From NCBI GenBank assembly GCA_027624915.1, contig JAQBTR010000010.1:1-33552 (forward strand): a stretch of 33,552 nt of DNA, given 5' to 3'. Positions within the stretch are counted from its first letter, which is position 1; every line of letters begins with the position of its first letter. Below, one piece after another: positions 803 through 15,386 of this stretch. The notes under the pieces were generated by a model. It searched no databases. It saw only the letters and a list, made by a program, of their open reading frames with translations, and had not been told where the DNA came from. The DNA comes from a bacterium (GTDB taxonomy: Bacteria > Patescibacteriota > Minisyncoccia > Ryanbacterales > GWA2-47-10b). The position numbers were made by a program, and so were the translations under genes.

Positions 803-830
803 ACTATACCACGAAAACTACAAAAATCAA
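803..830 (-). promoter_or_regulatory. Promoter for the GT2 gene, leaderless type
   Basis: On the minus strand TTGATT (825-830), a 16-base spacer and TATAGT (803-808) stand 8 bases before the ATG at 794. No Shine-Dalgarno is visible. The -35 box overlaps the TGA stop of the preceding HddC-like gene. Transcription would begin at or within a few bases of the start codon. Confidence 0.55.
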
Positions 831-1528
831 CTACCAAATGAATCTCTCGCGTCCTTCAACCGATCCGGAGTTCCCATGTCACGAACATACTCTTTTGTAT
901 GATATGCATATACTTTTTCTTCTGCATCAAGGACTAGCGGTAATATATCATTTTCTATACTGCACTGACCATCCGGAATAAAATCTAAAAACCGAGGAGA
1001 AAGAATATAAAGTGATGCAATATTTATATCTGGAAGTTGTACGTCTTTTTGGTGTGGACGCAAAAACAAAACACGAATTTTTTTATCCTCTATGTGAACA
1101 AGGTCGCTGTGCTGAGGGTACTCTGCGTCTTGTACAACAAACGTGGCAATGGCATCGCTATGCTCTTCGTGATATGTAATAAACGATGACATATCAAAGT
1201 CCAATATTATGTCACCGGATACTACCAAAAAATCCTCATTAATTTTGTCGCGTAATACACGTAAGGCGCCAGCTGTTCCTTGTGCATCCTCTTCTTGAAG
1301 GCACTCAACATCCATTCCGAAGCGAGAGCCATCACTACAAAAATTGGCAATCTGCTCACCAAGGTGCCCTGTCAATATAAAAACTTTGGTAATCTCATGC
1401 TTTTTAAAAAGTTTGAGTTGGTGTTCAAGTACTGACTTGCCACCAATCTCAACTAACACCTTTGGAGTTAATCTTGTTAGCTCCCCGAGTCGTGTAGCAC
1501 GACCTCCTGCTAAAATAACGCCTATCAT
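827..1528 (-). CDS. hddC: Sugar-1-phosphate nucleotidylyltransferase, HddC-like
   Basis: The 233-residue protein opens with LAGGRATRLGELT (residues 6-18) followed by PKVLVEIGGKSVLEH, the NTP-binding signature of the sugar-phosphate nucleotidylyltransferase family; SGDIILDF near residue 105 is the metal/nucleotide site. Family role: it joins a sugar 1-phosphate and an NTP to give a nucleotide sugar in the cytoplasm. Its start is fused to the stop of the upstream GHMP kinase by a one-base TAATG overlap, so the two are translationally coupled. The kinase/guanylyltransferase pairing and its length match HddC, which makes GDP-D-glycero-alpha-D-manno-heptose. The symbol rests on that pairing; a mannose- or glucose-1-phosphate enzyme is possible. 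Confidence 0.7.
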   Translation of the reverse strand: MIGVILAGGRATRLGELTRLTPKVLVEIGGKSVLEHQLKLFKKHEITKVFILTGHLGEQIANFCSDGSRFGMDVECLQEEDAQGTAGALRVLRDKINEDFLVVSGDIILDFDMSSFITYHEEHSDAIATFVVQDAEYPQHSDLVHIEDKKIRVLFLRPHQKDVQLPDINIASLYILSPRFLDFIPDGQCSIENDILPLVLDAEEKVYAYHTKEYVRDMGTPDRLKDARDSFGS

Positions 1529-2526
1529 TAGTAATTATCGGTTGGAACGTTATAAATAACCTGACTCCCTAGATTTTCAAACTTAAAGGGAACGTGCAAT
1601 AGATTTGATAGAACTGCTTTTACAGCCATTTGTTTTTCAACCGGAACATAAAAAAGTAAAAAACCGCCTCCGCCAGCGCCAATGAGCTTACCTCCCAGCG
1701 CACCCGCCTTGCGCGCGTTGGAATACATAGAGTTAATATCATCATTTGTTATTTTTGATGTAAGACCGCGCTTAATCATCCACGATTCGTGCAAAAGTTT
1801 TCCGAATTCATCCAAGTCAGCTTTTTCGTCTGTCAAAATATTATATCCCTGATCAACCATCGAGTACATTTTTGCGAGTTCTACTTTTCTTTCTGGTGTC
1901 TTTTTAATCTGCTCTTTAGCTATTTCCGAAGCATTCCTTGGATATCCTGTAAAAAACAACATAAGATTATTCTCTAGTTTAAGTAAACGATCTCTGGAAA
2001 CTGGCACTGGTGTAACACTAATACCTTGTTCTCCACCAAAGACAATCTTATTAAAACCTCCATAGGCAGCCGCCGTCTGATCTTGTGAACCAACACTTTC
2101 CTTTATCCTGTCCTGCTCAACATGAATCGCATCTAGTGCTAGCTGTCGCTTCCCTACTTCATCTCCCTTTAAATTATAAAGCGCATTTAAAAAACCAACT
2201 GTAAACGCGGAGCTAGACCCCAGACCCGACATGCCTGGTACATCTGCATTGTGCTGCATCTCAATCCCCTTAGAAAAAGCCATGTGCGCCAAACACTCTC
2301 GAACAGATGGGTGTTCAATCTCTTTTTGTGTTTTTGTTTCTTCTAGCTTTACGTACCTAATGCGATAATTGCAGTCAAAAAATGGAGGTATGTAACGTGC
2401 CGTAATATAACAATATTTATCAATCGTAGCCGAAAGAACGGCCCCACCGTGCTCCTTGTACCAAACAGGATAATCGGTGCCACCACCAAAAAATGATATT
2501 CGAAATGGAGTTCTAGTAATTAACAT
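1528..2526 (-). CDS. hddA: GHMP kinase, D-glycero-D-manno-heptose 7-phosphate kinase-like
   Basis: The 332-residue protein begins RTPFRISFFGGGTDYP, the typical N-terminus of HddA-type GHMP kinases. It has the ATP-binding PGMSGLGSSSAF loop at about residues 96-107 and a C-terminal GGKLIGAGGGGF segment, the third GHMP motif. Family role: ATP-dependent phosphorylation of the anomeric carbon of a heptose 7-phosphate, giving the substrate for HddC. It overlaps the HddC-like gene by one base. No Shine-Dalgarno is seen; TATAGT lies five bases before the ATG, so the mRNA may be leaderless. The partner isomerase GmhA and phosphatase GmhB are not in the window. Fucokinase-like activity is an alternative, but sequence style favours HddA. 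Confidence 0.75.
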   Translation of the reverse strand: MLITRTPFRISFFGGGTDYPVWYKEHGGAVLSATIDKYCYITARYIPPFFDCNYRIRYVKLEETKTQKEIEHPSVRECLAHMAFSKGIEMQHNADVPGMSGLGSSSAFTVGFLNALYNLKGDEVGKRQLALDAIHVEQDRIKESVGSQDQTAAAYGGFNKIVFGGEQGISVTPVPVSRDRLLKLENNLMLFFTGYPRNASEIAKEQIKKTPERKVELAKMYSMVDQGYNILTDEKADLDEFGKLLHESWMIKRGLTSKITNDDINSMYSNARKAGALGGKLIGAGGGGFLLFYVPVEKQMAVKAVLSNLLHVPFKFENLGSQVIYNVPTDNY

Positions 2527-2531
2527 ACGCG

Positions 2532-2537
2532 ACTATA
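2532..2537 (-). promoter_or_regulatory. -10 element of the hddA-hddC operon, leaderless type
   Basis: The minus strand reads TATAGT five bases before the hddA start codon at 2526. No convincing -35 was found at 16-18 bases, and no Shine-Dalgarno is present. The spacing fits transcription starting on the ATG. Confidence 0.4.
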
Positions 2538-2566
2538 GGATAGTTGTTTTTTGACTAAAAATCAAA

Positions 2567-2596
2567 CAAAAAAGCTAGCACTAATGAATGCTAGCT
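2567..2596 (-). terminator. Intrinsic terminator of the radical SAM gene
   Basis: An 8-base-pair stem (2573-2580 with 2589-2596, core GCTAGCA) has an 8-base loop and is followed on the minus strand by a T run. The TAG stop of the radical SAM gene (2591-2593) lies inside the hairpin arm. Confidence 0.8.
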
Positions 2597-4558
2597 TGCG
2601 CTGTATAATATGTGTCGAGTCTTGGAAACAGACCCTATATATGCGCCCCTCTTATATCCGAACCATACAACATGTCTCAACCAATCTTCAAAATCAGCAT
2701 AATGATCGCCATGGTCAAGTTCATACGATATTTGACCGGCGACCAGTCCTTGCTCCGTACCTTCGAGCACTGAACGATAGAGCTCCCAAATATTATATGT
2801 CGTTGAAGCAGTTGACTGTATGTGTCTCGGCAATCGCATCAACATATGATTAAGATACACTGATTGTTTGAGTACATCCTGTGAGGTCTCGCTAGAGTAT
2901 CTTTGAAGCTCGGGTGCCCGCAAAAGAAGATCAAGAGCCTCCTCGTAAAACTTTTGTAAGACACCTTCTTTATAGAGTTGGATGAATATATATTCGTCTG
3001 CTGGCCAGTATAGATTTAACCATTCTGGCACGGCACAGTATTCAACCTCACCTCTCTGAATTCTACGCGCCTTCTCAATAAAAAACTGGCTAATGTAGGC
3101 GGTTAGCGGATGGCTAGATTTGTCAGCATAGAGAAACTGCTCAAACATCCAACGATACGGAACTTTTGCCACCTTGTTTAGTACAACGAGTGGAATTTGC
3201 AAAAGTTTGTCGAAATGCAAAAGTGAGACCATCCATGCATATGCTCGTGCCTTCGCCCAATCTTCGCGACTCATTGTAGAGGTTGAAATCACTAGCTCTT
3301 CGAGCTCTGGAATACCATCAACAGTTCCATCAATCGATCCATGGTGGAAAGACGTATGAACCGTAACAGATTCCATTTCATAACGTTTTTGATATGCGGG
3401 GTTGCCCATCTCAGCATTTGGAAGAAGCGAAAGATTACCAAACTGAATTCGATTGTGTTGTCCATGCATAATCGCTGTCGCGATTCCGTCAACATACGAA
3501 TCATACGTCTCTTCTGGTAGGCCAAGTAGGTAGTCACTAACGGTTGGGATGCCAACCGCCGTATAACGACGCTGCAGTTCTCGATATACACTTAACTTGA
3601 TGTTATCTCTATGAATAGCCGTGAGCGTGGGTTCGTGTAACGATTGAAAGGCAAGCAATGCCCCTTGCTGAAGACCCGACTCACTCAAAATCGTCTGAAC
3701 TTCAAAAATGTTATCGCCTGCATTTTTTGCTGCCTGTACAGAAAGGCGGTGCGGAAGACCATATCTTGCCTTAACTTCTGCCGCATAACGAGCAAGTTCG
3801 ATGTCTCTTGGGATAATCCCAAAGTTAGCATCACAACAGAAAATGAATTCGACACCGTGAGAGGCAAACCATTCTATTTCTTGTCTTAGAATGTTTTCAT
3901 CAAACCTAGAAAACTTCTGTCCTATGGCTGACCCCCAGTCACAAAAATCACAGCTGTATGGACAACCTCTATTTGTTTCCCAAAGAGCTTGCCAAATAAC
4001 ACCCGGATTGTTCTCCATCAAACTATCAAATACACCAGATAGGTATGGGGATGGAACCTGGGCTAGATCGGCATCCTTCATTCTGCCCACCCTCTCAGTC
4101 ATCTGATACTCACCATCGGCATCCAAAAAACTTACCGACGGAATTTGTGTCCAATGGAAAGATTTAGCATAACGAAGAACTTCTACAAAAACGCGTTCGC
4201 CTTCGTTATGACACGCAATGTCAATGTACGGATGTTTGCGCAAAAATGCTTCAGATCTGTCAGGGGTCTGAGGACCACCAACAAAAATAAGAACGTCAGG
4301 TCGCCTCTCTTTTAATCGACGCGCAACAGCCAAAGAAAACTGTTCGTTCCAAACATAGAGACTCATACCAACCAAATCGGAAGAGATAAGTGCCTCAACC
4401 GCCTCTTCTATGGGCATACGCCTGTAGAGCGGGTCGAGATACTCAACACCAAGATCTGGTGCTGCGTGATTTGCGTATGACATTAAGCATCCAGCAGAAT
4501 AAGGGAAGTAATACTGATCCCCCATAGCATAATTAAACTGAGTGAGACCCACCTTCAT
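2591..4558 (-). CDS. B12-binding-domain radical SAM protein
   Basis: The 655-residue protein has a cobalamin-binding-like Rossmann domain at about residues 1-160 (SAGCLMSYAN, GMSLYVWNEQ, FVGGPQTPD, NEGERVF) and a radical SAM core with the cluster motif C199-x3-C203-x2-C206 (GCPYSCDFCDW). A long C-terminal helical region follows from about residue 420. I see no DxHxxG histidine, as is common in radical SAM cobalamin proteins. Family role: C-methylation or other radical chemistry at unactivated carbons using SAM, a 4Fe-4S cluster and usually cobalamin. Its place beside a methyltransferase, SDRs and a dioxygenase suggests it tailors the sugar made here, but the substrate cannot be read from sequence. 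It has a strong Shine-Dalgarno (AAAGGAG) 8-9 bases before the ATG, its own promoter and its own terminator. Confidence 0.85.
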   Translation of the reverse strand: MKVGLTQFNYAMGDQYYFPYSAGCLMSYANHAAPDLGVEYLDPLYRRMPIEEAVEALISSDLVGMSLYVWNEQFSLAVARRLKERRPDVLIFVGGPQTPDRSEAFLRKHPYIDIACHNEGERVFVEVLRYAKSFHWTQIPSVSFLDADGEYQMTERVGRMKDADLAQVPSPYLSGVFDSLMENNPGVIWQALWETNRGCPYSCDFCDWGSAIGQKFSRFDENILRQEIEWFASHGVEFIFCCDANFGIIPRDIELARYAAEVKARYGLPHRLSVQAAKNAGDNIFEVQTILSESGLQQGALLAFQSLHEPTLTAIHRDNIKLSVYRELQRRYTAVGIPTVSDYLLGLPEETYDSYVDGIATAIMHGQHNRIQFGNLSLLPNAEMGNPAYQKRYEMESVTVHTSFHHGSIDGTVDGIPELEELVISTSTMSREDWAKARAYAWMVSLLHFDKLLQIPLVVLNKVAKVPYRWMFEQFLYADKSSHPLTAYISQFFIEKARRIQRGEVEYCAVPEWLNLYWPADEYIFIQLYKEGVLQKFYEEALDLLLRAPELQRYSSETSQDVLKQSVYLNHMLMRLPRHIQSTASTTYNIWELYRSVLEGTEQGLVAGQISYELDHGDHYADFEDWLRHVVWFGYKRGAYIGSVSKTRHILYSAS

Positions 4559-4615: not shown

Positions 4616-4642
4616 TAAAAAAGAGCCCCTATGCTGGGGCCC
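4616..4642 (-). terminator. Intrinsic terminator of the 311-residue methyltransferase gene
   Basis: A GC-rich stem (GCCCC at 4625-4629 with GGGGC at 4636-4640) with a 6-base loop is followed on the minus strand by CTTTTTT. The TAG stop (4629-4631) is inside the hairpin. The T run leads directly into the TTGACA of the next promoter. Confidence 0.75.
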
Positions 4643-5564
4643 AAACATCGAAAGAATATCCATCTTGAAACGTATTTCCGCACTTAACTCTTTGAGTATG
4701 GATAACCTTTATTGTACCGTTAACTTCAAACGGCTCTAGAAATTCGGAAACATATCCTGATAAGTACCCACGAGCTTTGTGAAACCTATACGCAAGATAG
4801 TCAATCAAGCTTGAACGATCATACCATTCGAGCATTGGATCAACATGAATAACTCGTGCTGGCTTCTTCTCAAGTAAAAAATCTATAAAAGGCATCCACT
4901 CACCTCCCATTTGCTCAAAAGCACTAAACAAGAGGATTGTGGTATTTTCTGGAAATTTGACATGATCGTCGGGATGGAACATGTCAAAAACTGTTCCATG
5001 CATATTCCATCCAAAGTGTCGCTTGAGAACTTCAGGAATTTTACTTGCCGATTGAGCCCAATCATAACCACGATATTCTCTACTTGGAAAAAGTTGAGCA
5101 AGTCCCGCCAAATTGTGATATGGACCACATCCAAATTCATGAACCGGACCGTGCGATCCAAAAAAATTTAGAAAAAGCCAGAGCTGAAATACTTTACGAA
5201 TGCCCAACTCAAAATGCTCATCTAATGGAATGATATAATCCCCCATCCATCTAACGGGAAAAACATCTCGGTCATAATATTTTGGCCACAGCGAATCAAG
5301 AGTATGTGTCCGTTTTAGTTCCTCAAGATTTTCTAGCCATCCGTCCTCCCAAACAGAAAGCCGATTCGGGCCAGCAACCGCAAGAGAACCAGAATCAATT
5401 CTTTCTATAATTCCTCGAATAATGCCGTCACGCTCCTCTTTGGTTGGCTTTCGAAACCGAAGATCTAAGTCAACAATGAGCCGTTGACACATATTTGGTA
5501 GAGCACCTTTTGAAATTGAAAGAAGCTCGGCAAAATCACTAACTCCCAGTTTGTATTCTTTCAT
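4629..5564 (-). CDS. Class I SAM-dependent methyltransferase-like protein
   Basis: The 311-residue protein has one recognisable motif, VHEFGCGPYHN at about residues 141-151, which matches motif I of Rossmann-fold methyltransferases (E/DxGxGxG with a Tyr in the loop). GYDWAQSA near residue 168 fits the acidic ribose-binding strand. The first 130 residues do not resemble a family I can name and may form a substrate-binding lid. An AAGGAGG sits four bases before the ATG. It is a single gene between two terminators, next to the radical SAM gene, so a role in methylating the same product is reasonable. O-, N- or C-methylation cannot be told from sequence, and loss of catalysis cannot be ruled out. 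Confidence 0.65.
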   Translation of the reverse strand: MKEYKLGVSDFAELLSISKGALPNMCQRLIVDLDLRFRKPTKEERDGIIRGIIERIDSGSLAVAGPNRLSVWEDGWLENLEELKRTHTLDSLWPKYYDRDVFPVRWMGDYIIPLDEHFELGIRKVFQLWLFLNFFGSHGPVHEFGCGPYHNLAGLAQLFPSREYRGYDWAQSASKIPEVLKRHFGWNMHGTVFDMFHPDDHVKFPENTTILLFSAFEQMGGEWMPFIDFLLEKKPARVIHVDPMLEWYDRSSLIDYLAYRFHKARGYLSGYVSEFLEPFEVNGTIKVIHTQRVKCGNTFQDGYSFDVWAPA

Positions 5565-5610: not shown

Positions 5611-5637
5611 AAAAAATGCGCCACTTATAGTGACGCA
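5611..5637 (-). terminator. Intrinsic terminator of the SDR gene at 5625-6602
   Basis: A 9-position stem with one mismatch (5617-5625 with 5629-5637) and a 3-base loop is followed by a T6 run on the minus strand. The TAA stop (5625-5627) overlaps the left arm and loop. Confidence 0.8.
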
Positions 5638-6602
5638 AATGGATCGTAACGACTCTTGTCTTTTTTGTGAGACCGATACCAATCAAATGTTTCTCGAATG
5701 CCATCTCTCAACGAAACCTCGGGTTTCCAACCCATTTTCCTTGCACGATGTATGAGCAAAACTCTTTTTGAGTCTCCCGTAGAAACTTGCTGGTCGCCAA
5801 GTATAACCTGAACATCTCTACCAGAAACATCGATAACTGTCTTAATAAGCCCGAGAATACTCACGCCGACTCCTGTGCCAAGATTGATAGGGCCGCCCAC
5901 AACTTCTTGCTCTGCAGCCATGAACATACCACGAGCCACATCCTTTGCGTAAACGATGTCACGAATCGCATCTGGTTGACCACGTAGAACAAACGGATCC
6001 TCTCCACCCTCAATACGCCTAATGAACGATGGAACCACCATAGCTGCGGGGGACGCAAAATCATCCCACGGACCATAGGTATTTGCTGGTCGAACAATAG
6101 AAATTCTAAATTCTGGATACTGCTCTTGATAGGCTTGTGCCTGCATCTCCCCCATACGCTTTGCCCAGCCAGGATACCAATCATTTCGAGATGGGGCTGG
6201 ACCAATATCGTCTTCATCAAAGACTGGGGATGGTGCATACACTGCAAGCGAACTTGCAATCAAAATCCCCTCAGAGCAACTTTCACGAGCAGCTCTCAAC
6301 ATATTCATGTCTAAAAGAGCATTGTGATCAAACATTGTTGCAGGTTTCTCGCGAACAAGTTGGGGAGACCCCTTGCTGCACAAAAGATTAAATACATAAT
6401 CCATACCAAAGCATGCATCTCTACAGGCTCCAGGATCAAGAAGATTCATCATGCGAAACTCTGTGTGTGGATTTGCTCGAGATGGATGATCCATCGATAC
6501 CACTCGAACATTGGCTCCCGCCTCCAAAAGAAGAATGACAAGATGCTGACCAATGAGACCCGTGCCACCGGCAACGAGGACGTCTTTGTTTTTGAAGTCC
6601 AT
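5625..6602 (-). CDS. Extended SDR, NAD-dependent epimerase/reductase with altered active site
   Basis: The 325-residue protein has the NAD(P)-binding GGTGLIG at 12-18, SSLAVYAP at 117-124 (catalytic serine), RPANTYGPWDDF near 175 and a C-terminal GWKPEVSLRDGI, all typical of extended SDRs such as GDP-fucose synthase and UDP-sugar epimerases. The usual YxxxK is altered: the DNA encodes Y143-P-G-W-A-K148, so the residue four before the lysine is proline and the tyrosine is one place further away. It may have shifted catalysis or lost one step. The Shine-Dalgarno AAGGGGG precedes the ATG by five bases. It may be the 4-keto reductase or an epimerase for the sugar of this region; the substrate is inferred only from context. 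Confidence 0.85.
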   Translation of the reverse strand: MDFKNKDVLVAGGTGLIGQHLVILLLEAGANVRVVSMDHPSRANPHTEFRMMNLLDPGACRDACFGMDYVFNLLCSKGSPQLVREKPATMFDHNALLDMNMLRAARESCSEGILIASSLAVYAPSPVFDEDDIGPAPSRNDWYPGWAKRMGEMQAQAYQEQYPEFRISIVRPANTYGPWDDFASPAAMVVPSFIRRIEGGEDPFVLRGQPDAIRDIVYAKDVARGMFMAAEQEVVGGPINLGTGVGVSILGLIKTVIDVSGRDVQVILGDQQVSTGDSKRVLLIHRARKMGWKPEVSLRDGIRETFDWYRSHKKDKSRYDPFASL

Positions 6603-6643: not shown

Positions 6644-6668
6644 AAAAAAGCAAGCCGCTTGGCTTGCT
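6644..6668 (-). terminator. Intrinsic terminator of the PhyH dioxygenase gene
   Basis: A perfect 8-base-pair stem AGCAAGCC/GGCTTGCT (6649-6656 with 6661-6668) has a 4-base loop and a T6 run on the minus strand. The TAG stop (6667-6669) overlaps the hairpin arm. Confidence 0.85.
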
Positions 6669-7362
6669 AGTCGCGAAGACTCATGGGTTCTCGCTTTGCT
6701 TCTTTTCCAGTTTTATAAGGAGCACCTTTTGTGATGTACGGCACAAGCAGCATGGGTCTTGATCGAGTCGGATGCGTATTTGATCGCGAACCATGAATTG
6801 CATTACCGTGCAGAAAAAGAACACTTCCTTGAGGCATATAGAGATCCAACTTGTGATACTGCGGAGGAGGAACAACTTTGTGCCCGGGCTGCTCTCCTTC
6901 TCCCTCATGGAAACTCCTTGCCGCTTCATATGGCAACAGTGGCTCCACATGTGAGCCAGGATAAATATACATACCACCATTTCCCGGGTCATGATCAACA
7001 AAGTTGAAATTACCGGTAATATACATTCCGTATGGAGATGCGGGATATGCATTATCCTGATGTGGGTTCCAAGCCTGATACCCAAATCGAGTACCAGCCT
7101 CTTTAAAAAGAAACATCGATTGGAGACAGACCACCTCTCCCTCTTGGAGGTATTCTAGATAGTCCACGATGGTTGAATTTCGCACCAAGGCTCGGACTCG
7201 CTCATCGGTTCGATGAAGATTCATCAGCCCAGCGTAATCATCACTCTCTCTATACCCTTCAAAAACACCTAGAATATAACGACACTCATCGGGAGAAAAA
7301 ATATCAGGAACAACAAGATAGCCGTTTGTTCTATAGAAAAATCGTTCTCCTGGCGTTGGCAT
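6667..7362 (-). CDS. PhyH-family Fe(II)/2-oxoglutarate dioxygenase
   Basis: The protein is 231 residues from the ATG at 7362. That start is chosen because AAGGAGG stands five bases before it; a TTG at 7377 would place the Shine-Dalgarno inside the gene. The iron triad can be read: H101-x-D103 (NPHQDNAYP) and H190 (GNAIHGSRSN), with R200 or R202 as the likely 2-oxoglutarate anchor. GNFNFVDHDPGNGGMYIYPGSH is the family core. Family role: hydroxylation, desaturation or ring-forming oxidation of small molecules. Related PhyH enzymes oxidise sugar units in orthosomycin antibiotics, so an oxidised sugar product is plausible here. The substrate is unknown. Confidence 0.85.
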   Translation of the reverse strand: MPTPGERFFYRTNGYLVVPDIFSPDECRYILGVFEGYRESDDYAGLMNLHRTDERVRALVRNSTIVDYLEYLQEGEVVCLQSMFLFKEAGTRFGYQAWNPHQDNAYPASPYGMYITGNFNFVDHDPGNGGMYIYPGSHVEPLLPYEAARSFHEGEGEQPGHKVVPPPQYHKLDLYMPQGSVLFLHGNAIHGSRSNTHPTRSRPMLLVPYITKGAPYKTGKEAKREPMSLRD

Positions 7363-7393
7363 GAAAGCCTCCTTCAAGGTTCAAACCTACCTA

Positions 7394-7422
7394 TCTATAT
7401 CGTGTTTTTAAGTACTAGTCAA
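7394..7422 (-). promoter_or_regulatory. Promoter of the PhyH gene
   Basis: Minus strand TTGACT (7417-7422), 17-base spacer, TATAGA (7394-7399). The -35 box contains the TGA stop of the upstream HAD gene (7419-7421). A leader of about 25 bases carries the AAGGAGG. Confidence 0.7.
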
Positions 7423-8072
7423 ACTAATAGCTCATTTATATTTTTCGTATTTCTTAAATCCTCAAATGAAGAAATAACTTCATCCGCGGCACGTAACGCA
7501 TGATTGTCGCATGTAGAAGTAATGGCAATGCAATATGAGCCAGCAGCCTTTGCCGAATCAACGCCAAGCGGCGCATTTTCGACTGCTATACATTCTTCTG
7601 GTAAAACGCTAATCATCCTAGCACCCATAAGATATGGATCGGGGTGAGGCTTACCATGTTCTGTTGTGTCTCCCGTGACGAGGGCTGTGAACATATTCAA
7701 AAAATCTTTTGGCAAAGACTTCTCCATACGATCACGAAGACCGGCTGTAACTATAGCGCATGGAATATTCTTCTTACGTAACTCACCCACCAATTCATAC
7801 ACGCCTGGATATATATAAACACCATCCTTCGCACCCTCTAAATAGTATTTTTCTTTTTTCTTTGTTATCTCACCGGCCTTATCTGCATCGAGTCCAAACC
7901 TTTCTGTAAATTTATCCGAAAGCAAAGAAAGCTTCGTGCCCTCAAATGGATAGTAATCATCTTCTTTTAAGTCCGCACCGAAATCTAACAAGGCCTTATG
8001 CCAAGCACGAAAATGAGACTCCATGGTATTAGCCAAAACACCATCGAAATCAAATAGGACTCCTTTATACAT
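7419..8072 (-). CDS. HAD-superfamily phosphatase/phosphomutase, beta-phosphoglucomutase-like
   Basis: The protein is 217 residues from the ATG at 8072, which forms a TAATG overlap with the stop of the DJ-1 gene; the longer reading frame to 8105 would run inside that gene. DFDGV at residues 8-12 holds the nucleophile and acid-base aspartates (D8, D10), followed by a helical cap (about 18-90), VTAGL near 109 (motif II), the lysine of HGKPHPDPY (motif III) and AVENAPLGV (motif IV). This is the C1-cap HAD pattern of beta-phosphoglucomutase and small sugar phosphatases. Role inferred: removing or moving a phosphate on a sugar intermediate. It is not the GmhB type, which has a different motif spacing. 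Confidence 0.85.
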   Translation of the reverse strand: MYKGVLFDFDGVLANTMESHFRAWHKALLDFGADLKEDDYYPFEGTKLSLLSDKFTERFGLDADKAGEITKKKEKYYLEGAKDGVYIYPGVYELVGELRKKNIPCAIVTAGLRDRMEKSLPKDFLNMFTALVTGDTTEHGKPHPDPYLMGARMISVLPEECIAVENAPLGVDSAKAAGSYCIAITSTCDNHALRAADEVISSFEDLRNTKNINELLV

Positions 8073-8585: not shown

Positions 8586-9341
8586 TTAAGTCTTTTTAAT
8601 AGCTAATACTTCGGCGCCTTCTGATGGTAATAGGGCGCCTACCTCTTTAAGATACTCCCAAGAAGCTACATCACCAACCTCCATTATTATCTCACCAGAA
8701 TCATCCTTCAAATCTCCATGTAAAACTGCAACTACTGAAGGATGTAGTGTCTTTAATTTTTCATCCATATCGCCGCCCTCTTCATGACGAATAACAGTTA
8801 GTGAACACTCACCGAATGATTTATCTGTATGATATCTATCATTATCTCCATGAAAATGAGGTAGGTCCCCTACAGGAATATGATTACTTGTTCCTTCGTA
8901 CCCCTTTCCACTTCGGCCATATTCATCTTTGAGACGAATAAGATCTTTTTTATTTGTTGGTGTTTCGGTCTCCATTATTAGAACGCCTTCTTCTGAAAGA
9001 GCCTCTGACGAATGAAAAACCCCCTTCTCAATAAGTCTCCCCTCACCCGCAATAATTGTCTCTTCAATATCCAACGTACAAAAACGCACCTCACCAGACA
9101 GTACTGCAAGCGACGTCTTTTTATTTGGGTGACAATGCATTGAAGTTTGACATCCTTGCTTGATATGCAAAATCCAAATAGCAATATTATCATTTCGAAA
9201 AATAAGGTATTCCTGTCCCCACGGTTTTTTAATTACTACATTAGTATAATCAAAAAAATCGTCCTCAAGGAGCGACGCGTCTATGTTGATACCTTCGAGC
9301 TGGTCCCTATCTTTATCTGTAAGTCGGAGTCGCTTAATCAT
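8586..9341 (-). CDS. Cupin-domain protein
   Basis: The 251-residue protein has a first cupin barrel around residues 38-135: KPWGQEY, then QTSMHCHPNKKTSLAVLSGEVRF with metal ligands H69 and H71, then GVFHSSEA as the second motif. KPWGQE resembles the mannose-6-phosphate isomerase type II/cupin group. Residues 160-251 contain a further acidic segment (DLPHFHGDND) that may be a degraded second barrel. Such proteins isomerise or epimerise sugars or bind metal; the exact reaction is unclear. It is the first gene of a three-gene operon with the DJ-1 and HAD proteins. No Shine-Dalgarno precedes it, unlike its neighbours on either side. Confidence 0.8.
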   Translation of the reverse strand: MIKRLRLTDKDRDQLEGINIDASLLEDDFFDYTNVVIKKPWGQEYLIFRNDNIAIWILHIKQGCQTSMHCHPNKKTSLAVLSGEVRFCTLDIEETIIAGEGRLIEKGVFHSSEALSEEGVLIMETETPTNKKDLIRLKDEYGRSGKGYEGTSNHIPVGDLPHFHGDNDRYHTDKSFGECSLTVIRHEEGGDMDEKLKTLHPSVVAVLHGDLKDDSGEIIMEVGDVASWEYLKEVGALLPSEGAEVLAIKKT

Positions 9342-9384: not shown

Positions 9385-9408
9385 AAAAAGCCCCATTTTT
9401 GTGGGGCT
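9383..9408 (-). terminator. Intrinsic terminator of the E1 alpha-beta operon
   Basis: A perfect 7-base-pair stem AGCCCCA/TGGGGCT (9389-9395 with 9402-9408) with a 6-base loop is followed by T7 on the minus strand. The TAG stop of the E1-beta gene (9407-9409) overlaps the arm. Confidence 0.88.
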
Positions 9409-10324
9409 ATATAATAGATTTTACTTTTTCAACTATACGTTCTGCCGTTGGCGGAACATTATCAAAATGAGGTGCAAAACCAGAAATTTGATTACGACGG
9501 CCAAGTACGTCTACCTTACGGCCCGACTCAAGCATGAGTTTGTGTGCAATCTCTCGACACACACCACCCTCATAGTCAGCATCAATCACGAGACCGCCAT
9601 ACACACTATTCGCAAGCGCATCACGTATGACACGTGTTACTTCAAATGGCTTGAGTTGCCAAAGATGAACAACGTTGCACTTGATACCAGCCTTCGCAAG
9701 ATTGATGGTTGCCTGCTCAATTCCTAATCGCGTTACCGAAATCGGGAAGAGCGCAATGTCAGCATCGCCTTGAACGATATTGGGCATTTCATAATCAACA
9801 GGCCACAGAAAACGATTCTCACTAGAGATGAATGGGTCGTCACTACGCATGAATCGTTCCCATACCTCACGAAATTCCATTGGCGTTGCTGGGGCATACA
9901 CTTGTATGCCTGGCATACGAGTAAAAATTGTATGGTGTGCGCCAGATGCTACAGGACCAATCCCAGCATCCATACCAATGATTCGAATAAAGCACGGGCA
10001 CGGCGTACCCCACATCTTTTTTGCAATGGCTGCATAATTGTTAATGCCAATCGAGTTGAAGTGAGCAAAGCCTTGGTAACGAACAACCTGAATTGGACGC
10101 TTGCCCGCCAAAGCCATCCCAGCTGTCATATATCCGTTTGATACATCAGCCATTGGAAATTCGACAATACCCTCATATCCAGGTTCACCCGGATGAATTT
10201 CAGGTACTGTACCACCTACCCAGCCAACAGCTGTTAGACACTGACCTGCAAGAAGTCCACCGTTTTTGAGATGCTCACGTGAGATGTCGGCGATTGTTTC
10301 ACCGAGCGTCATCTTTTCACTCAT
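9407..10324 (-). CDS. Thiamine-diphosphate enzyme, 2-oxoacid dehydrogenase E1 beta-like subunit
   Basis: The 305-residue protein fits the E1-beta fold: a pyrimidine-binding domain (about 1-170, with FPMADVSNGYMTAGMALAG and RYQGFAHF) and a transketolase C-terminal domain (about 190-300, with SVTRLGIEQATINLAKAGI and VIDADYEGG). In classical E1-beta chains the residue after PLA/PIA is the glutamate that activates the cofactor; here the aligned residue is D60. The gene overlaps the alpha gene by ATGA and also has GGAGGG eight bases before its ATG. No E2 or E3 gene is in the window, so a complete dehydrogenase complex is unlikely. A carboligase or decarboxylase role is inferred; compare AviB1/AviB2 of avilamycin biosynthesis. 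Confidence 0.85.
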   Translation of the reverse strand: MSEKMTLGETIADISREHLKNGGLLAGQCLTAVGWVGGTVPEIHPGEPGYEGIVEFPMADVSNGYMTAGMALAGKRPIQVVRYQGFAHFNSIGINNYAAIAKKMWGTPCPCFIRIIGMDAGIGPVASGAHHTIFTRMPGIQVYAPATPMEFREVWERFMRSDDPFISSENRFLWPVDYEMPNIVQGDADIALFPISVTRLGIEQATINLAKAGIKCNVVHLWQLKPFEVTRVIRDALANSVYGGLVIDADYEGGVCREIAHKLMLESGRKVDVLGRRNQISGFAPHFDNVPPTAERIVEKVKSII

Positions 10325-11265
10325 CGGTTATCCCTCCACTCAGTCAGGTCAAGATCGGGAATAGCCTCAAGCCAAAGCTGTTCAACATCAAAGTTGACTT
10401 CGCGTTCAAGCTTGTGAGCCTGAACAAACAAACCTGCGCGGTCCAACACTTTCTTTACGATAGCCATACGATCCCATTCTGGAGGGCCATCACATCCAGT
10501 ACCGTTATGCCACCAGTGGCGCACAGTATGGATATTAAAAAGTGCAGGGCAAGACAAATCAATCATTCGAACTCTATTCATGATAGTCCAAGGATCATCA
10601 GCAAGGTCAAACGACTGCTCAATACCGAAGCCCTTGGCTACATCAACAACATTCCAATTTCTCCGTACATCTACTTCTGTAAGGACAGACATATTGTTGT
10701 CTACACAGATAAAAAGAATTGGAAGTTTTTGGAATGCTGCCCAACCGAATGATTCGAGAGCCCAGCCCTCCTCGGCTGCCGCATCACCAAAAAAGATGAT
10801 GGTCGGTTCACGAGTCGCGTATGCATATCCCGTGCCGATAGCAACATTAGTCCCAATGAATCCATCAGTCCCAAACATCTTAATTGGTGGCGAATGGATG
10901 GATGCAGATCCACCCATACCACCGGCACATCCAGTATCTTTATGAAGAAGTTCATCACGCAAACCTTCAGGCCTGCCACCAAACGCAAGATATATATCAT
11001 GACAACGATGCTGACCAAAAAGCGCTGGTTGCACCTTACTGAGGAATGATTCCGCCACGGAAGACGCAACAAATTCTTGCCCCATCGAAAGATAAATTGG
11101 CATTTGGATATGCTTTGAGCCATCAGATTTGCGCTGATCATGGGCAAGCTTTACTCCCCACTCAAAAGCGCGTATACGACATGCTCGCTCAAACATCTTG
11201 AGTGTCTGATGTGCTGAGAATTGTTCAATAGCACCTGGCAAAACGCCAAGGTCAGGTAATCGCAT
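10321..11265 (-). CDS. Thiamine-diphosphate enzyme, 2-oxoacid dehydrogenase E1 alpha-like subunit
   Basis: The protein is 314 residues from the ATG at 11265, chosen because AGGAGG lies nine bases before it; upstream in-frame codons are in the leader. HRCHDIYLAFGG (86-97) and GGMGGSASIHSP (115-126) match the E1-alpha phosphorylation-loop and cofactor regions. The TPP motif is G160-D-A followed by N190-N191, the GDG-x(25-28)-NN pattern with Ala in the third position. With the beta subunit it should bind thiamine diphosphate and Mg2+ at the subunit interface. Probable substrate: pyruvate or another 2-oxoacid, giving an activated aldehyde that could be added to a keto-sugar. The carboligation role is inference. 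Confidence 0.87.
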   Translation of the reverse strand: MRLPDLGVLPGAIEQFSAHQTLKMFERACRIRAFEWGVKLAHDQRKSDGSKHIQMPIYLSMGQEFVASSVAESFLSKVQPALFGQHRCHDIYLAFGGRPEGLRDELLHKDTGCAGGMGGSASIHSPPIKMFGTDGFIGTNVAIGTGYAYATREPTIIFFGDAAAEEGWALESFGWAAFQKLPILFICVDNNMSVLTEVDVRRNWNVVDVAKGFGIEQSFDLADDPWTIMNRVRMIDLSCPALFNIHTVRHWWHNGTGCDGPPEWDRMAIVKKVLDRAGLFVQAHKLEREVNFDVEQLWLEAIPDLDLTEWRDNR

Positions 11266-11295
11266 AACGATCTTCCTCCTTGTTAGTCTGGGCGC

Positions 11296-11324
11296 ACTAT
11301 ACAGCAAAGCATTATAACTGTCTA
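11296..11324 (-). promoter_or_regulatory. Promoter of the E1 alpha-beta operon
   Basis: Minus strand TAGACA (11319-11324), 17-base spacer, TATAGT (11296-11301), followed by a leader of about 25 bases with AGGAGG. It begins right after the terminator at 11333-11357. Confidence 0.72.
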
Positions 11325-11332
11325 TATAAAAT

Positions 11333-11357
11333 AAAAAGCTCGAGCTATGCTCGAGCT
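11333..11357 (-). terminator. Intrinsic terminator of the SDR pair at 11345-13119
   Basis: A perfect 9-base-pair stem AGCTCGAGC/GCTCGAGCT (11337-11345 with 11349-11357) has a 3-base loop and a T5 run on the minus strand. The TAG stop (11345-11347) lies in the arm and loop. Confidence 0.88.
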
Positions 11358-12316
11358 ATATTTTCTTTGTACCATAAAGCGGTCCTTTCCAGGCCAGCTT
11401 CAAGGGTCGTCTGTGGCAACCATCCAAGAACTTTTTTTGCTTGACTAACATCAAGCTGAATATCAAATGGAAGTGATGGTTTCGAACTGTCCCATTCAAA
11501 GCGAACATTTTTTTTGCATGCTACGGCAATTTTGTGTCCAATCAACTCAATCGTATATCCAATGCCACCCATACCTATGTTAAAAACACTATAGTCTGGC
11601 AAAGTTTTGCTGAGAGTGAGAATGTGATCAATGACCTCTACCATATCATCGATATACATAACATCGCGCCGGATTTTGGGATCACCCCACATCTCGACAA
11701 CACCACCATCCTCGGCTTGCATGACCTTGGTGATAGTAGCGCCAGTTACATGTGACCGCTCGAGATCAAATTTATCGTGAGGCCCATACACATTTGAATG
11801 TCTTAAAACTGTATACTTGGTTCGACCAAGACTCGCATAAAACTTAGCAAGTCCTTCAGCTTCCATTTTAACTGTTGCCGCTCCTTGATATGGAGGAAAG
11901 TAATTACTTTGATCTACATCCTCTTCTCGAAGAAGCCCCCCAACGCCTGAAGGATACACTACCGTGCAGCTTGGAAAGATTACGTGGTCAACACCAAACT
12001 CATGTGCCGCCTCCATTACAAACGTATTCATAAGAATATTATTTGCTACGTGTATCCACGGACGCTCAATAATATCACGAGCACCTGATGTAATGGCTGC
12101 TGCATGAATTAAAATATCTGGTTGAATATCATGAATGAGATTCTCCGCAGCACCCTCATCAATGAGATCGATCGAGTGTCGCTTTCTGTAGAGACGCTTG
12201 ATTCGAGTAAGCCCTGCTGCAAATACTTCAAATCGAGAATCTTTCCGATAGAACTCATAAATATTGCGGCCAATGAAACCAGTGGCACCAGTTACGAGAA
12301 TTTTCTTTTTACTCAC
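11345..12316 (-). CDS. Extended SDR, NAD-dependent epimerase/dehydratase with altered active site
   Basis: The 323-residue protein has GATGFIG at 10-16 for NAD(P) binding, SCTVVYPSG at 116-124, RHSNVYGPHDKF near 174 and RRDVMYIDDMV near 211, resembling GDP-fucose synthase-like SDRs. The start is GTG at 12316, in a GTGA overlap with the stop of the upstream SDR. The YxxxK is unusual: the DNA gives Y143-QGAATV-K150, so the residue four before the lysine is A146. This is the second SDR of region B without a canonical catalytic tyrosine. It could be a keto-sugar reductase or epimerase that uses another acid, or work with the partner SDR at 12313-13119. Function inferred from context. Confidence 0.85.
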   Translation of the reverse strand: MSKKKILVTGATGFIGRNIYEFYRKDSRFEVFAAGLTRIKRLYRKRHSIDLIDEGAAENLIHDIQPDILIHAAAITSGARDIIERPWIHVANNILMNTFVMEAAHEFGVDHVIFPSCTVVYPSGVGGLLREEDVDQSNYFPPYQGAATVKMEAEGLAKFYASLGRTKYTVLRHSNVYGPHDKFDLERSHVTGATITKVMQAEDGGVVEMWGDPKIRRDVMYIDDMVEVIDHILTLSKTLPDYSVFNIGMGGIGYTIELIGHKIAVACKKNVRFEWDSSKPSLPFDIQLDVSQAKKVLGWLPQTTLEAGLERTALWYKENIARA

Positions 12317-13119
12317 GATACTGTTCTTGTCTGACCACCATCAATGTTGATGAACTGACCTGTCATGAACTCGTTGGTCGCAAGCATCCGAACGACACTG
12401 TAAACTTCGTCGAGCGTGCCCGGTCGTCCGAGTGGTGTCTTCTTTCTCTCATCATTGAACATTCGTACTTTAGCGATACTCTCTTCAACACCCTCTCGCC
12501 GCGCCCTATCGGCAATGTTCCGTTCCCATCCACCGCCCATGATTGTGGACGGACGGATAACGTTAACTCGCACCTTTGGTGCAAGCTCGTTTGCCATCAT
12601 CTTACTTAGAGTATCCAAACCTGCCTTGGCCGCTGCATAGTGTGGATTAAATCTGCCAGGCTGGTGTGCCGGCAACGAGGAAATATTTATGATACTTGAT
12701 GTATTTTCTTCTGATGCCTGAAGCATCGGTATGAATTCACGCATGATACGTACTGCACTCATGAGATTGAGGTCAATCGTCCTCATCCAGTCTTCGTCAG
12801 TCAAATCATCGAAAGTACCAAATGTATCAGCACCTCCAATCGCATTGACAAGTAAATCAATTGAATTGGTGTGCTTTTGTACAAGATCACGAAAATCAGC
12901 GATACTGGCTAAATCGTTCATCTCAACAAGTCCGAAGTGGCATTGAGCGTCCTCGCTTGCACGTGGATCATGAACGACTTGCTGAACGTCTTCTAGATGT
13001 TGCGGGTCACGCCCCGTAATGAATACGTGAGCACCCTCATACATAAAGCACTTCGCAATATGTGCGCCAATGCCATAACTACCACCAGCTACAACTACAT
13101 GCCCTCTTTTTATTTCCAC
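12313..13119 (-). CDS. Classical short-chain dehydrogenase/reductase (FabG-like fold)
   Basis: The 268-residue protein has the classical SDR signature: GGSYGIG at 12-18, NAIGG near 92-96, INISS at 144-148, Y161-x3-K165 (HYAAAKAG) and a C-terminal GQFINIDGGQT. The start is GTG at 13119 with AAGGAG six bases upstream. It overlaps the next SDR by four bases (GTGA). Family role: NAD(P)H-dependent reduction of a keto group or the reverse. In a branched-sugar pathway it could reduce the ketone of an added two-carbon unit, as YerF does for yersiniose; that is inference. Fatty-acid-type FabG activity is less likely in this setting. Confidence 0.87.
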   Translation of the reverse strand: MEIKRGHVVVAGGSYGIGAHIAKCFMYEGAHVFITGRDPQHLEDVQQVVHDPRASEDAQCHFGLVEMNDLASIADFRDLVQKHTNSIDLLVNAIGGADTFGTFDDLTDEDWMRTIDLNLMSAVRIMREFIPMLQASEENTSSIINISSLPAHQPGRFNPHYAAAKAGLDTLSKMMANELAPKVRVNVIRPSTIMGGGWERNIADRARREGVEESIAKVRMFNDERKKTPLGRPGTLDEVYSVVRMLATNEFMTGQFINIDGGQTRTVS

Positions 13120-13273: not shown

Positions 13274-13810
13274 TTAGAACTCTTTTAATTCTGGAGGATT
13301 TAATTTGTGCTTTATATATGAAAGCACACCAATACCAGAAATATTATCCATCTCTTCTTTCATAATCATATCCCTCAGTTCTTCAATTGTTTTCGTCTCA
13401 ACCTCAATACCCTCTTCAATCACATGTCCATTTTTCTTAATCGCATTTGTGCCAAATACAACATTTGATATTCTATTCATTCTATCAGATGTAACGTGAC
13501 CACGTGCTACAATCTGTAAATTTTTGCACTCATACCCAGTCTCTTCCATAAGCTCACGTCTTGCTGATTCAAGAGGGTCTTCACCTCCTTCAACACCGCC
13601 CGCTGGTAATTCGATAGTTTCCTTATTAAGTGCCGGTCGAAACTGTTTTACCAAAATAAGCTTTTCTTCTTTTGTAAAAATTGCCATAACAACACCATCG
13701 GGAGCATTGATGCGATAAAAGGGCTTGCCTGTATATATTGGGAGTTCGGGAAACTCCTCACTTTCTACATCAAACCATTCAGTATGAAATTCTATCTTCT
13801 TTTTTGACAT
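13274..13810 (-). CDS. NUDIX hydrolase, ADP-ribose pyrophosphatase-like
   Basis: The 178-residue protein carries the complete Nudix box GX5EX7REUXEEXGU with G71, E77, R85, E86, E89, E90 and G92. The preceding KQFRPALNKETIELPAG matches ADP-sugar and nucleotide-sugar pyrophosphatases of the NudF/ADPRase group. Family role: hydrolysis of nucleoside diphosphates linked to a sugar, giving NMP and sugar phosphate. It has no Shine-Dalgarno and a TACAAT box six bases before the ATG, unlike the strong Shine-Dalgarno genes around it. It may be a housekeeping gene enclosed in the cluster, or control the pool of a nucleotide sugar. Confidence 0.88.
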   Translation of the reverse strand: MSKKKIEFHTEWFDVESEEFPELPIYTGKPFYRINAPDGVVMAIFTKEEKLILVKQFRPALNKETIELPAGGVEGGEDPLESARRELMEETGYECKNLQIVARGHVTSDRMNRISNVVFGTNAIKKNGHVIEEGIEVETKTIEELRDMIMKEEMDNISGIGVLSYIKHKLNPPELKEF

Positions 13811-13816
13811 GGTGTT

Positions 13817-13845
13817 ATTGTACTGAGACTTAAAAAATATGCAAA
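13817..13845 (-). promoter_or_regulatory. Leaderless-type promoter of the NUDIX gene
   Basis: Minus strand TTTGCA (13840-13845), 17-base spacer, TACAAT (13817-13822), then six bases to the ATG at 13810. Transcription should start on the start codon. Confidence 0.55.
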
Positions 13846-13846
13846 G

Positions 13847-13870
13847 AAAAAAGGCGCGTTACGACGCGCC
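13847..13870 (-). terminator. Intrinsic terminator of the dehydratase/RmlC-like operon
   Basis: A perfect 7-base-pair GC stem GGCGCGT/ACGCGCC (13853-13859 with 13864-13870) has a 4-base loop and a T6 run on the minus strand. The TAA stop (13859-13861) overlaps the arm. Confidence 0.88.
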
Positions 13871-14419
13871 AATATGTTTTACCTCTTTATCCCTTTTTGA
13901 AAGAATCGGTTTATCGATTGGCCATGTCAGATTAAATTGTGGTTCATCCCAAGCATATGTAAATTGATGCTCAGCCCCACGATAATATTCTGACTGCCAG
14001 TAGAAAAATCCTGCTCTATCTGACATAACCAAATGACCGTTCCCAAAGCCCGCTGGAATCAAAACCTGTGTTCGATCCTCTTCAGAAAGCGTGATTTGAA
14101 ATGATTGTCCAAATGTAGGCTTGTCTTTACGGCAATCAACAACAGCAAGGAGAAATCTTCCAAACAGGCAAGTCACCAGCTTCCATGTACGCGGATCCCC
14201 ATGAATCCCAATGAAGGAACCCAGTGGGGAAACAGACAGATCATGCTCAATGAATGACTTAGGAGTAATACCATATGCTTCAAAAATGCTCCCATACAGT
14301 CTTTTGTTGAACATCATGGTGTATGAACCACGATGATCTCGAAAAACATTCGGAGTTATGATAAGGGGGCCATCCAGATTTGTCGCCTGAACGAATAGAG
14401 GTTTATTAGGATCGCTCAT
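13859..14419 (-). CDS. RmlC-like nucleotide-sugar 3,5-epimerase (cupin fold)
   Basis: The protein is 186 residues from the ATG at 14419, preceded by GGAGGGG; the reading frame extends further upstream only because it overlaps the dehydratase gene. The RmlC pattern is clear: FRDHRGSY near the N-terminus, SFIGIHGDP with the catalytic-type histidine, WKLVTCLFGRF, DKPTFGQSFQITLS, VLIPAGFGNGH, a YY pair, and LTWPIDKPILSKRD at the end. The second conserved histidine region reads FGNGH instead of FAHGF. Family role: epimerisation at C3 and/or C5 of a 4-keto-6-deoxy nucleotide sugar. Directly coupled (14-base overlap) to the GMD-like dehydratase, it likely uses that enzyme's GDP-linked product, like MlghB-type enzymes of Campylobacter heptose pathways. 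Confidence 0.85.
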   Translation of the reverse strand: MSDPNKPLFVQATNLDGPLIITPNVFRDHRGSYTMMFNKRLYGSIFEAYGITPKSFIEHDLSVSPLGSFIGIHGDPRTWKLVTCLFGRFLLAVVDCRKDKPTFGQSFQITLSEEDRTQVLIPAGFGNGHLVMSDRAGFFYWQSEYYRGAEHQFTYAWDEPQFNLTWPIDKPILSKRDKEVKHIGAS

Positions 14420-15386
14420 AATATCCCCTCCAATAGTCCAGCGTGTCACGAAGTGTTTTTTCGAAAGAAATTTCCGGCTCCCACTGTGTTGCCTGCCTGA
14501 ACTTCTCCGTCGACGGAATCTGAAGTGTAACGTCAGAGGGTCGCAAACGATCAGGATCTTGCCGAACTTCGATGATATCGCCATCCGGCGACAACTCAAG
14601 AAGTCCATCAAGCATTTCACGAACCGTACACGTATGCGCGCCACCAATATTGTAGACCTCACCAGCATCACAAGAATGAACGAGCATCCAGTATGCACGG
14701 ACGGCATCTCTAACATCCATCCATGTCCGAACGCTATCGAGATTACCAACGTGCAGGATTGGTTTTTGCTTACCAACTTCGATTGCCGCAACTTGCTTAG
14801 CAAAGTTAGAAAGAACAAAAACCTCGCCTCGCCGCGGACCCGTATGCGTAAACATACGAGTCCTAATCGTCTGAATACCCCAGCTCAAGTAATACTGAAG
14901 TGCGAGCATATCTTCGGCTATCTTGCTCACCGCATAGGGGGATGCCGGTCTGAACGGATTGGTCTCCAAGATTGGGACTTCGTCCTCACTCACCTGTCCG
15001 TACACTTCAGACGAACTACAGATATGGATGATGGGATTGTACCCATCTTCACCCTTGAGTCTCTTAACGACTTCGAGTAAGTTGGCGGTACCAATAACAT
15101 TGGCCTGCAGTGTCGCCACGGGGGCAACAAAACTATAGTCAACGTATGATTGAGCTGCCAAATGAAAGATGAAATCAGGCTTATGTTTTCGAAGAACTCG
15201 TTCGAGAGAATGTGAGTCTTCGAGGTCTCCTTGTTCGAGCGTTACTCGATCAAGAATGCCACGAATATTGTCTTTCGGTGAACGCCACCGAACGAGACCT
15301 ACAATCTCTTCCGTAGAGTGTTCGAGTATATACTCAGCCAAATGACTTCCAACAAAACCGGTAATTCCAGTAATCAGAAAACTCAT
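14406..15386 (-). CDS. GDP-sugar 4,6-dehydratase-like SDR (GMD family)
   Basis: The 326-residue protein has GITGFVG at 7-13, HLAAQSYVDYSF at 75-86, the catalytic S125-S126-E127 and Y151-x3-K155, and FTHTGPRRGEVF near 181, a variant of the FNHTGPRRG hallmark of GDP-mannose 4,6-dehydratases. LRPSDVTLQ and a W-EPEISFEKTL end are also typical. Family role: NADP-dependent conversion of a GDP-hexose or GDP-heptose to its 4-keto-6-deoxy form. A canonical gmd is also present at 28595-29611, so this divergent copy probably serves another sugar; with HddA/HddC and the RmlC-like epimerase a GDP-heptose is a good candidate. AAGGGG precedes the ATG. Confidence 0.85.
   Translation of the reverse strand: MSFLITGITGFVGSHLAEYILEHSTEEIVGLVRWRSPKDNIRGILDRVTLEQGDLEDSHSLERVLRKHKPDFIFHLAAQSYVDYSFVAPVATLQANVIGTANLLEVVKRLKGEDGYNPIIHICSSSEVYGQVSEDEVPILETNPFRPASPYAVSKIAEDMLALQYYLSWGIQTIRTRMFTHTGPRRGEVFVLSNFAKQVAAIEVGKQKPILHVGNLDSVRTWMDVRDAVRAYWMLVHSCDAGEVYNIGGAHTCTVREMLDGLLELSPDGDIIEVRQDPDRLRPSDVTLQIPSTEKFRQATQWEPEISFEKTLRDTLDYWRGYYERS

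Follow-up and report, generated by a model that had tools for sequence, protein, structure and literature searches.

A sugar-tailoring gene block of a Patescibacteria-like genome with a five-gene E1-type core shared with T4-like phages: a candidate route to a branched GDP-heptose

We analysed a stretch of 33,552 nucleotides, the complete contig JAQBTR010000010.1 (G000:C16, here called the window) of an uncultured, tiny Patescibacteria-like genome (839 kb in 31 contigs, 98.6% complete), and studied in it a block of sixteen sugar-tailoring genes at positions 827-15386. In the middle of this block lie the genes for a two-subunit thiamine diphosphate (ThDP) enzyme, similar to the E1-alpha and E1-beta subunits of 2-oxo acid dehydrogenases, together with genes for a two-domain cupin (bicupin), a DJ-1 protein and a HAD phosphatase, and these five genes form a core which recurs in other genomes and in phages. 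We think there is about an even chance that the block codes for enzymes which build and tailor a branched 6-deoxy sugar in nucleotide-activated form. This sugar would most likely derive from guanosine diphosphate (GDP)-heptose, and the E1 pair would add a two-carbon unit to it at C4.

Gene families were assigned by Pfam, and NCBIfam models, comparison with the Protein Data Bank (PDB) and AlphaFold models were used for selected genes. All sixteen genes are intact open reading frames (ORFs) on the minus strand, and because the intergenic gaps across the block range only from -34 to +154 bp it is operon-like. A preliminary description of this DNA had named a co-oriented sugar-tailoring set at this place, which we can confirm: every family it named was recovered by Pfam except that of the methyltransferase, and the NUDIX hydrolase gene at 13274-13810 has to be added to its list.

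827-1528, minus strand: g01, sugar-1-phosphate nucleotidyltransferase (PF00483, 5e-30) with a probable HddC-like role
1528-2526, minus strand: g02, GHMP kinase of the HddA/WcbL type (best PDB matches 3k85, 4usk and 4n3o)
2591-4558, minus strand: g03, cobalamin-binding radical S-adenosylmethionine (SAM) protein of the KedN5-like C-methyltransferase family (Pfam, NCBIfam); a neighbour gene at locus L061 is 49% identical
4629-5564, minus strand: g04, probable SAM methyltransferase; no Pfam match was obtained, and the class rests on a HEFGCG-type motif read in the sequence
5625-6602, minus strand: g05, extended short-chain dehydrogenase/reductase (SDR), Fcl-like, catalytic Tyr lost (Pfam, NCBIfam, motif)
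6667-7377, minus strand: g06, PhyH-type Fe(II)/2-oxoglutarate oxygenase with HxD...H (PF05721, 1e-16; motifs)
7419-8105, minus strand: g07, HAD phosphatase, beta-PGM/BT2121-like, core gene (Pfam; DFDGV motif conserved)
8072-8578, minus strand: g08, DJ-1/PfpI protein with ICH nucleophile elbow, core gene (PF01965, 1e-51)
8586-9341, minus strand: g09, bicupin with KPWGxEYL and HxHPNKKT motifs, core gene (cupin folds)
9407-10324, minus strand: g10, E1-beta-like ThDP subunit (Transket_pyr), core gene (Pfam; AlphaFold model)
10145-10147, minus strand: codon of E1-beta Asp60, where other ThDP enzymes have their catalytic Glu (alignment)
10321-11307, minus strand: g11, E1-alpha-like ThDP subunit (E1_dh), core gene (PF00676, 2e-17)
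11345-12316, minus strand: g12, extended SDR, Fcl-like, catalytic Tyr lost (Pfam, NCBIfam, motif)
12313-13119, minus strand: g13, classical SDR with YxxxK, candidate ketoreductase (PF13561, 1e-40; motif)
13274-13810, minus strand: g14, NUDIX hydrolase (PF00293, 8e-15), 53% identical at L061
13859-14419, minus strand: g15, RmlC-like epimerase (dTDP_sugar_isom; start ATG at 14419), nearest to GDP-4-keto-heptose 3-epimerases (PDB comparison)
14406-15386, minus strand: g16, SDR similar to GDP-heptose 4,6-dehydratase (GDP_Man_Dehyd; PDB comparison, 7us5)

The search of related genomes proposed in the preliminary description revealed that the genes are linked far beyond chance. A first contig scan with a single E1-alpha query gave no match; with a three-sequence alignment as query nine loci were obtained. 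Genome G037 (locus L018), from another family of the class, is collinear with the window (g13, g12, E1-alpha, E1-beta, cupin, DJ-1, HAD, PhyH and g05, followed by g02 and g01), with the g16 homologue at the opposite end. Its cassette proteins are 28-74% identical to those of the window, the DJ-1 protein reaching 74%. The relatives with the same genes are Patescibacteria, e.g. Yanofskybacteria and Sungiibacteriota, and further loci were found in Daviesbacteria, Omnitrophota and Elusimicrobia, about a dozen cellular loci in all. When the genes were clustered into families, those that recurred were E1-alpha, E1-beta, cupin, DJ-1, a HAD and the GHMP kinase; the first five of these, with the cupin as bicupin and the HAD as phosphatase, are the core. 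At least three HAD types occupy the HAD slot across the loci. The short Omnitrophota contig carries the HAD, the cupin and both E1 genes, and the Elusimicrobia locus comprises E1-alpha/E1-beta, a kinase fragment, DegT and a dehydratase, with no cupin within the stretch examined.

The strongest single result is the distribution of two of these proteins: the E1-alpha subfamily and the full-length cupin pick exactly the same ten of 384 genomes of the class (chance p = 6e-20, a value which ignores the relatedness of the genomes; the ten span at least six families). The cuts are clear, as the best ten genomes score at least 314 bits for E1-alpha and the next one 133, and at least 269 bits for the cupin and the next one 70. 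E1 and cupin are therefore functionally tied. The AlphaFold model of the cupin g09 (predicted local distance difference test, pLDDT, 89) matched only generic cupin folds in a structure search (oxalate decarboxylase, quercetinase, phosphomannose isomerase). On a plasmid of Rouxiella badensis (NZ_CP060593.1; L099, 10543-12263) relatives of the cupin and DJ-1 genes, followed by a short HAD-like ORF with the DFDGV motif, occur without E1 near arsenic resistance genes, and this triad may therefore be an older module with its own function.

The ThDP motif GDAx(n)DNN of E1-alpha is intact, the E1-beta model (pLDDT 84) has a template modelling (TM) score of 0.84 to the E1-beta subunit of pyruvate dehydrogenase (PDH; 1w85), and in three loci both subunits are fused in a single ORF. 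Since the pair shares its fold and its Pfam family with PDH E1, it could belong to ordinary 2-oxo acid dehydrogenase metabolism and lie in a polysaccharide locus by chance. However, no E2 acyltransferase (PF00198) was found in the genome of the window, so that, in agreement with the preliminary description, there is no partner in it to complete a dehydrogenase. ThDP enzymes use a catalytic Glu to activate the cofactor, and this residue is, to our knowledge, present in nearly all of them outside this family. At the corresponding position all 134 of 134 members of the E1-beta family have Asp, while four other E1-beta-type proteins of related genomes and the transketolase of the same genome have Glu in this column. 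The exact co-occurrence with the cupin and the presence in phages likewise speak against a dehydrogenase, and for practical purposes we regard this explanation as refuted. Furthermore, a His pair of the family aligns with the histidine of the transketolase THQ motif and not with the QHSQ of PDH. Because of the Glu-to-Asp signature, the transketolase-like His pair and the missing E2, the family is distinct from dehydrogenase E1, and its donor is not readable from the sequence. The second E1-like match of the genome turned out to be an ordinary split transketolase and not of the cassette type. In several Patescibacteria genomes a second type of E1 pair, with the ordinary Glu, was seen near DegT/SDR sugar genes (L028, 14856-17151; L031, 13889-15878; L024, 10595-12315).

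Which acceptor the E1 pair might use is suggested by its neighbours. Seven cellular loci encode a DegT-family enzyme with His in the place of the pyridoxal phosphate (PLP) lysine (FGHQxST.EGG), and for the single one tested the closest match is ColD, a GDP-4-keto-6-deoxymannose 3-dehydratase. The viral DegT versions mostly show the same ColD-like His signature. Campylobacter jejuni makes 3,6-dideoxy-heptoses with a C3-dehydratase of the ColD type (PMC10440746). In the window an RmlC-like epimerase stands in place of the C3-dehydratase, and many viral loci have both. The DegT gene of the window itself (17430-18554) was considered for this role and rejected, as its PLP Lys is present, unlike in the seven relatives. 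Judged from the predicted enzymes, making or using a 4-keto-6-deoxy sugar would be the common denominator of all cassette variants. A 4-keto sugar is also the acceptor suggested for AviB1/AviB2 and Pau11/Pau12, E1-like pairs proposed for two-carbon branches at C4 (PMC4425429, PMC4753412). We would place the E1 reaction at C4 because the variants share this chemistry, with the type of acceptor proposed for these two pairs and used by the ThDP enzyme YerE.

Alternatively, E1, cupin, DJ-1 and HAD could, instead of forming a C4 branch, produce or transfer a small acyl or acyloin group that decorates an amine or hydroxyl elsewhere on the sugar, or a non-sugar moiety. Cupin, DJ-1 and HAD have no assigned role, which leaves room for such a function, and the Rouxiella triad without E1 as well as a glycosyltransferase-like gene near one phage version (L184) would fit it. 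On the other side, the 4-keto-sugar enzymes (4,6-dehydratase, C3-dehydratase, RmlC) stand steadily beside E1 and point to a ketone as acceptor, and no acyltransferase was noticed among the conserved cassette genes. We consider a decoration of this kind decidedly unlikely.

The identity of the sugar can be approached by homology. Among solved structures the kinase and the dehydratase match enzymes of GDP-heptose pathways best, and the epimerase matches them jointly best. The nearest PDB relatives of g02 are D-glycero-D-manno-heptose kinases and their relatives, although its score against the NCBIfam HddA model (141 bits) is under the equivalog cut-off of 600, and g01 matches the HddC model weakly (49 bits, cut-off 300). 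The dehydratase g16 scores 300 bits against GDP-D-glycero-D-manno-heptose 4,6-dehydratase (7us5) versus 146 bits against GDP-mannose dehydratase, and the epimerase g15 about 121 bits against 7ani, 8dcl and 8dak versus 93 bits for the first classical RmlC. It is thus supported by homology that the kinase, the 4,6-dehydratase and the C3(5)-epimerase or C3-dehydratase act on GDP-heptose. In addition, the sedoheptulose-7-phosphate isomerase GmhA is present in nine of the ten cassette genomes but in only 50 of the 374 others of the class (p = 2e-7), in many cases no more than about 25 kb away from the cassette, and the cluster in G037 includes GmhA, HddA and an HddC-GmhB fusion.

The single cassette genome without a detectable GmhA is that of the window (the other nine of nine are positive), and it also gave no HAD-IIIA/GmhB-type match for the 1,7-bisphosphate phosphatase GmhB. 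The preliminary description had proposed a GDP-heptose derivative and a search for both enzymes elsewhere in the genome: the idea gained from the enzyme matches and the GmhA distribution, but neither enzyme turned up, so the source of heptose is unproven here. It is possible that the genes lie in an assembly gap or that this lineage gets its heptose otherwise. One such way would be that the E1 pair is a transketolase-like chain extender which acts before activation and makes a higher ketose phosphate; the cupin would isomerise this to an aldose, the HAD would remove a phosphate, and the HddA-like kinase and the nucleotidyltransferase would activate the product, the cassette thereby replacing GmhA and GmhB. 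Besides their absence, the transketolase-like His pair and the obligate partnership of HAD phosphatase and cupin agree with this, and at least three HAD types in one slot are what might be expected of a required phosphatase step. However, GmhA is present in nine of ten cassette genomes and L018 has GmhA as well as GmhB fused to HddC beside the cassette, therefore such a replacement is not general, and an ordinary split transketolase is encoded elsewhere in the genome. Altogether we rate a chain extender as unlikely.

The cassette is not restricted to cells. Scanning IMG/VR with the cupin and E1-beta alignments gave at least 80 loci each, largely on the same contigs; at least 121 loci have both E1 genes, with at least 68 distinct E1-beta proteins. 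Fifty distinct viral loci of at least 15 kb, among the matches listed, carry DJ-1 (49), cupin (49), a C3-dehydratase homologue (41), RmlC (33), the B12 radical SAM protein (29) and a heptose-type 4,6-dehydratase (20). A T4-type gp20 portal was detected in at least eight of 20 viral records tested (E 1e-69 to 1e-182) and in none of 14 control genomes, so these eight at least are real T4-like phages. The phage cassettes are flanked by clamp loader, sliding clamp, translation repressor and head-protease families. In the E1-beta tree, whose root is unknown, 24 of 26 viral rows fall on one side and 13 cellular together with two viral rows on the other, which is an old split rather than recent shuttling. 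One viral dehydratase was compared in the same way and resembles the GDP-heptose enzyme still more than g16 does (378 bits, versus 149 for the GDP-mannose type). Many phages have a small HAD-like ORF with the DFDGV motif between cupin and E1-alpha; the HAD slot thus seems to be kept in phages with a changed HAD type. A "phosphoheptose isomerase" annotation (phrog_1238) near phage cassettes, e.g. L206:1-909, was rejected as GmhA, as none was found in the 20 records; the name is probably misleading, small HAD-like ORFs of this kind lying there. Uncultivated T4-like phage contigs commonly carry E1, cupin and DJ-1 (IMG/VR loci L100-L254, e.g. L184, L208 and L225), with the glycosyltransferase-like gene of L184 nearby, while 50,697 records of named phages gave no cupin match and only weak generic matches for E1-beta.

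Several points weigh against a GDP-heptose branched at C4. In addition to GmhA and GmhB missing from the genome of the window, a direct search found no GmhA in the 20 viral records, so that phages would have to use host heptose or another sugar, and two distinct viral loci have a GDP-mannose-type dehydratase instead, hence the cassette may in some cases work on a sugar other than a heptose. GDP as the nucleotide is deduced from homology only. The Glu-to-Asp exchange and the transketolase-like His pair make more than one donor of E1 conceivable, and the likeness to AviB1/AviB2 was drawn from published descriptions. Finally, the best candidates for a C4 reductase, the Fcl-like g05 and g12, lack the catalytic Tyr, which is replaced in all five family members; therefore neither should be called a reductase yet. 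The YxxxK expected of an Fcl-like C4 reductase is present in g13, a classical SDR.

If the block nevertheless makes a branched GDP-heptose, the HddA/WcbL-type kinase and the nucleotidyltransferase would, by homology, activate a heptose, the 7us5-like g16 would yield a GDP-4-keto-6-deoxy sugar and g15 would epimerise this at C3 or C5. Most relatives encode a C3-dehydratase of the ColD type, either additionally or as a substitute. E1-alpha/E1-beta, without E2/E3, may then transfer a two-carbon unit, bound to ThDP and derived from a 2-oxo acid, onto the ketone at C4, a reaction that is proposed for AviB1/AviB2 and has been shown for YerE, the acceptor being presumably a GDP-4-keto-6-deoxy(-dideoxy)-heptose; it is from this step that we infer the branching of the sugar. 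The new branch ketone could be reduced by g13, and oxidation and methylation of the product would follow, carried out by PhyH, the B12 radical SAM protein and the methyltransferase. Cupin, DJ-1 and HAD would be obligate partners, whose task may be to prepare the donor or to remove phosphate from donor or product. The earlier reading of an undescribed sugar pathway has partial support, and we would now narrow it to a GDP-4-keto-heptose branching cassette.

Some further features of the window should be mentioned. The oxygen-requiring PhyH (6667-7377) and the typically oxygen-sensitive B12 radical SAM protein (2591-4558) share one operon-like block, a pairing also seen in L061 and some viral loci. 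Outside the block, 17430-20122 encodes a PseC-like DegT aminotransferase (Lys present), an SDR and a GNAT-like acetyltransferase, which suggests a separate N-acetylated amino sugar. A GMD-Fcl pair of the GDP-L-fucose pathway (27673-29611) is 60-65% identical to the pairs of L030 and L031. At 21077-22485, within a glycosyltransferase region, the sequence reads as a VTC-domain-like protein with a DUF4956-like membrane protein after it. Glycosyltransferase-type genes are truncated at both contig ends, thus the locus extends beyond the contig.

A broader claim, which we put forward tentatively and with some doubt, is that the Asp-for-Glu proteins are an undescribed E1-type ThDP subfamily which, with the obligate bicupin, DJ-1 and HAD, forms a five-protein module making an undescribed C-C bond on GDP-4-keto (3,)6-(di)deoxy-heptoses, and that ultrasmall bacteria as well as T4-like phages have retained it for surface sugars or glycosylation. 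If true, this would be a new carbon-branching route in sugar biosynthesis with a ThDP enzyme family lacking the usual catalytic Glu, and it would provide a testable five-gene module for the surface sugars of Patescibacteria and for phage sugar clusters, which are biochemically little characterised. A module common to phages and ultrasmall bacteria would also bear on how phages alter virion or host surfaces. In the open-licence literature we found no account of the combination in phages, Patescibacteria or Coxiella.

Known systems share parts of the set. In the yersiniose pathway a 4,6-dehydratase and a PLP-type C3-dehydratase are followed by a ThDP-dependent two-carbon addition at C4, catalysed by YerE. 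The same step logic may apply to the cassette; YerE, however, is a single-chain ThDP flavoprotein acting on a CDP-hexose, whereas in the window the E1 fold is spread over two subunits and the sugar is probably a GDP-heptose (the C4 branching by YerE is covered in part by PMC4753412). AviB1/AviB2 of the avilamycin eurekanate and Pau11/Pau12 of paulomycose are likewise two-subunit E1-like ThDP enzymes without E2/E3 in deoxysugar clusters (PMC4425429, PMC4753412), and the non-heme iron oxygenase AviO2, a partner in avilamycin, may be compared with PhyH. They differ from the cassette in its GDP-sugar/heptose context, its linked cupin, DJ-1 and HAD and its occurrence in Patescibacteria and phages. 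The capsular GDP-6-deoxy- and GDP-3,6-dideoxy-heptose pathways of C. jejuni (PMC10440746, PMC7949155) hold the best or joint-best relatives of the HddA-type kinase, the GDP-heptose 4,6-dehydratase and the RmlC-like C3/C5 epimerase, and relatives of the window carry the same ColD type of C3-dehydratase. In contrast to these pathways, the window has in addition the obligate core of E1-alpha, E1-beta, cupin, DJ-1 and HAD as well as PhyH and the B12 radical SAM protein, its Fcl-like SDRs are without the catalytic Tyr, and GmhA and GmhB were not found in its genome. The sugar/lipopolysaccharide-type clusters of pelagi- and cyanomyophages (PMC7029224) also combine nucleotide-sugar and glycosyltransferase genes in T4-like phages, but rfaE and UDP-glucose dehydrogenase are named there and the words epimerase and cupin are absent from the text. 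The cassette follows the logic of known branched-sugar systems but is set apart by the obligate five-gene core, the Glu-to-Asp signature of E1-beta and the distribution over Patescibacteria and T4-like phages.

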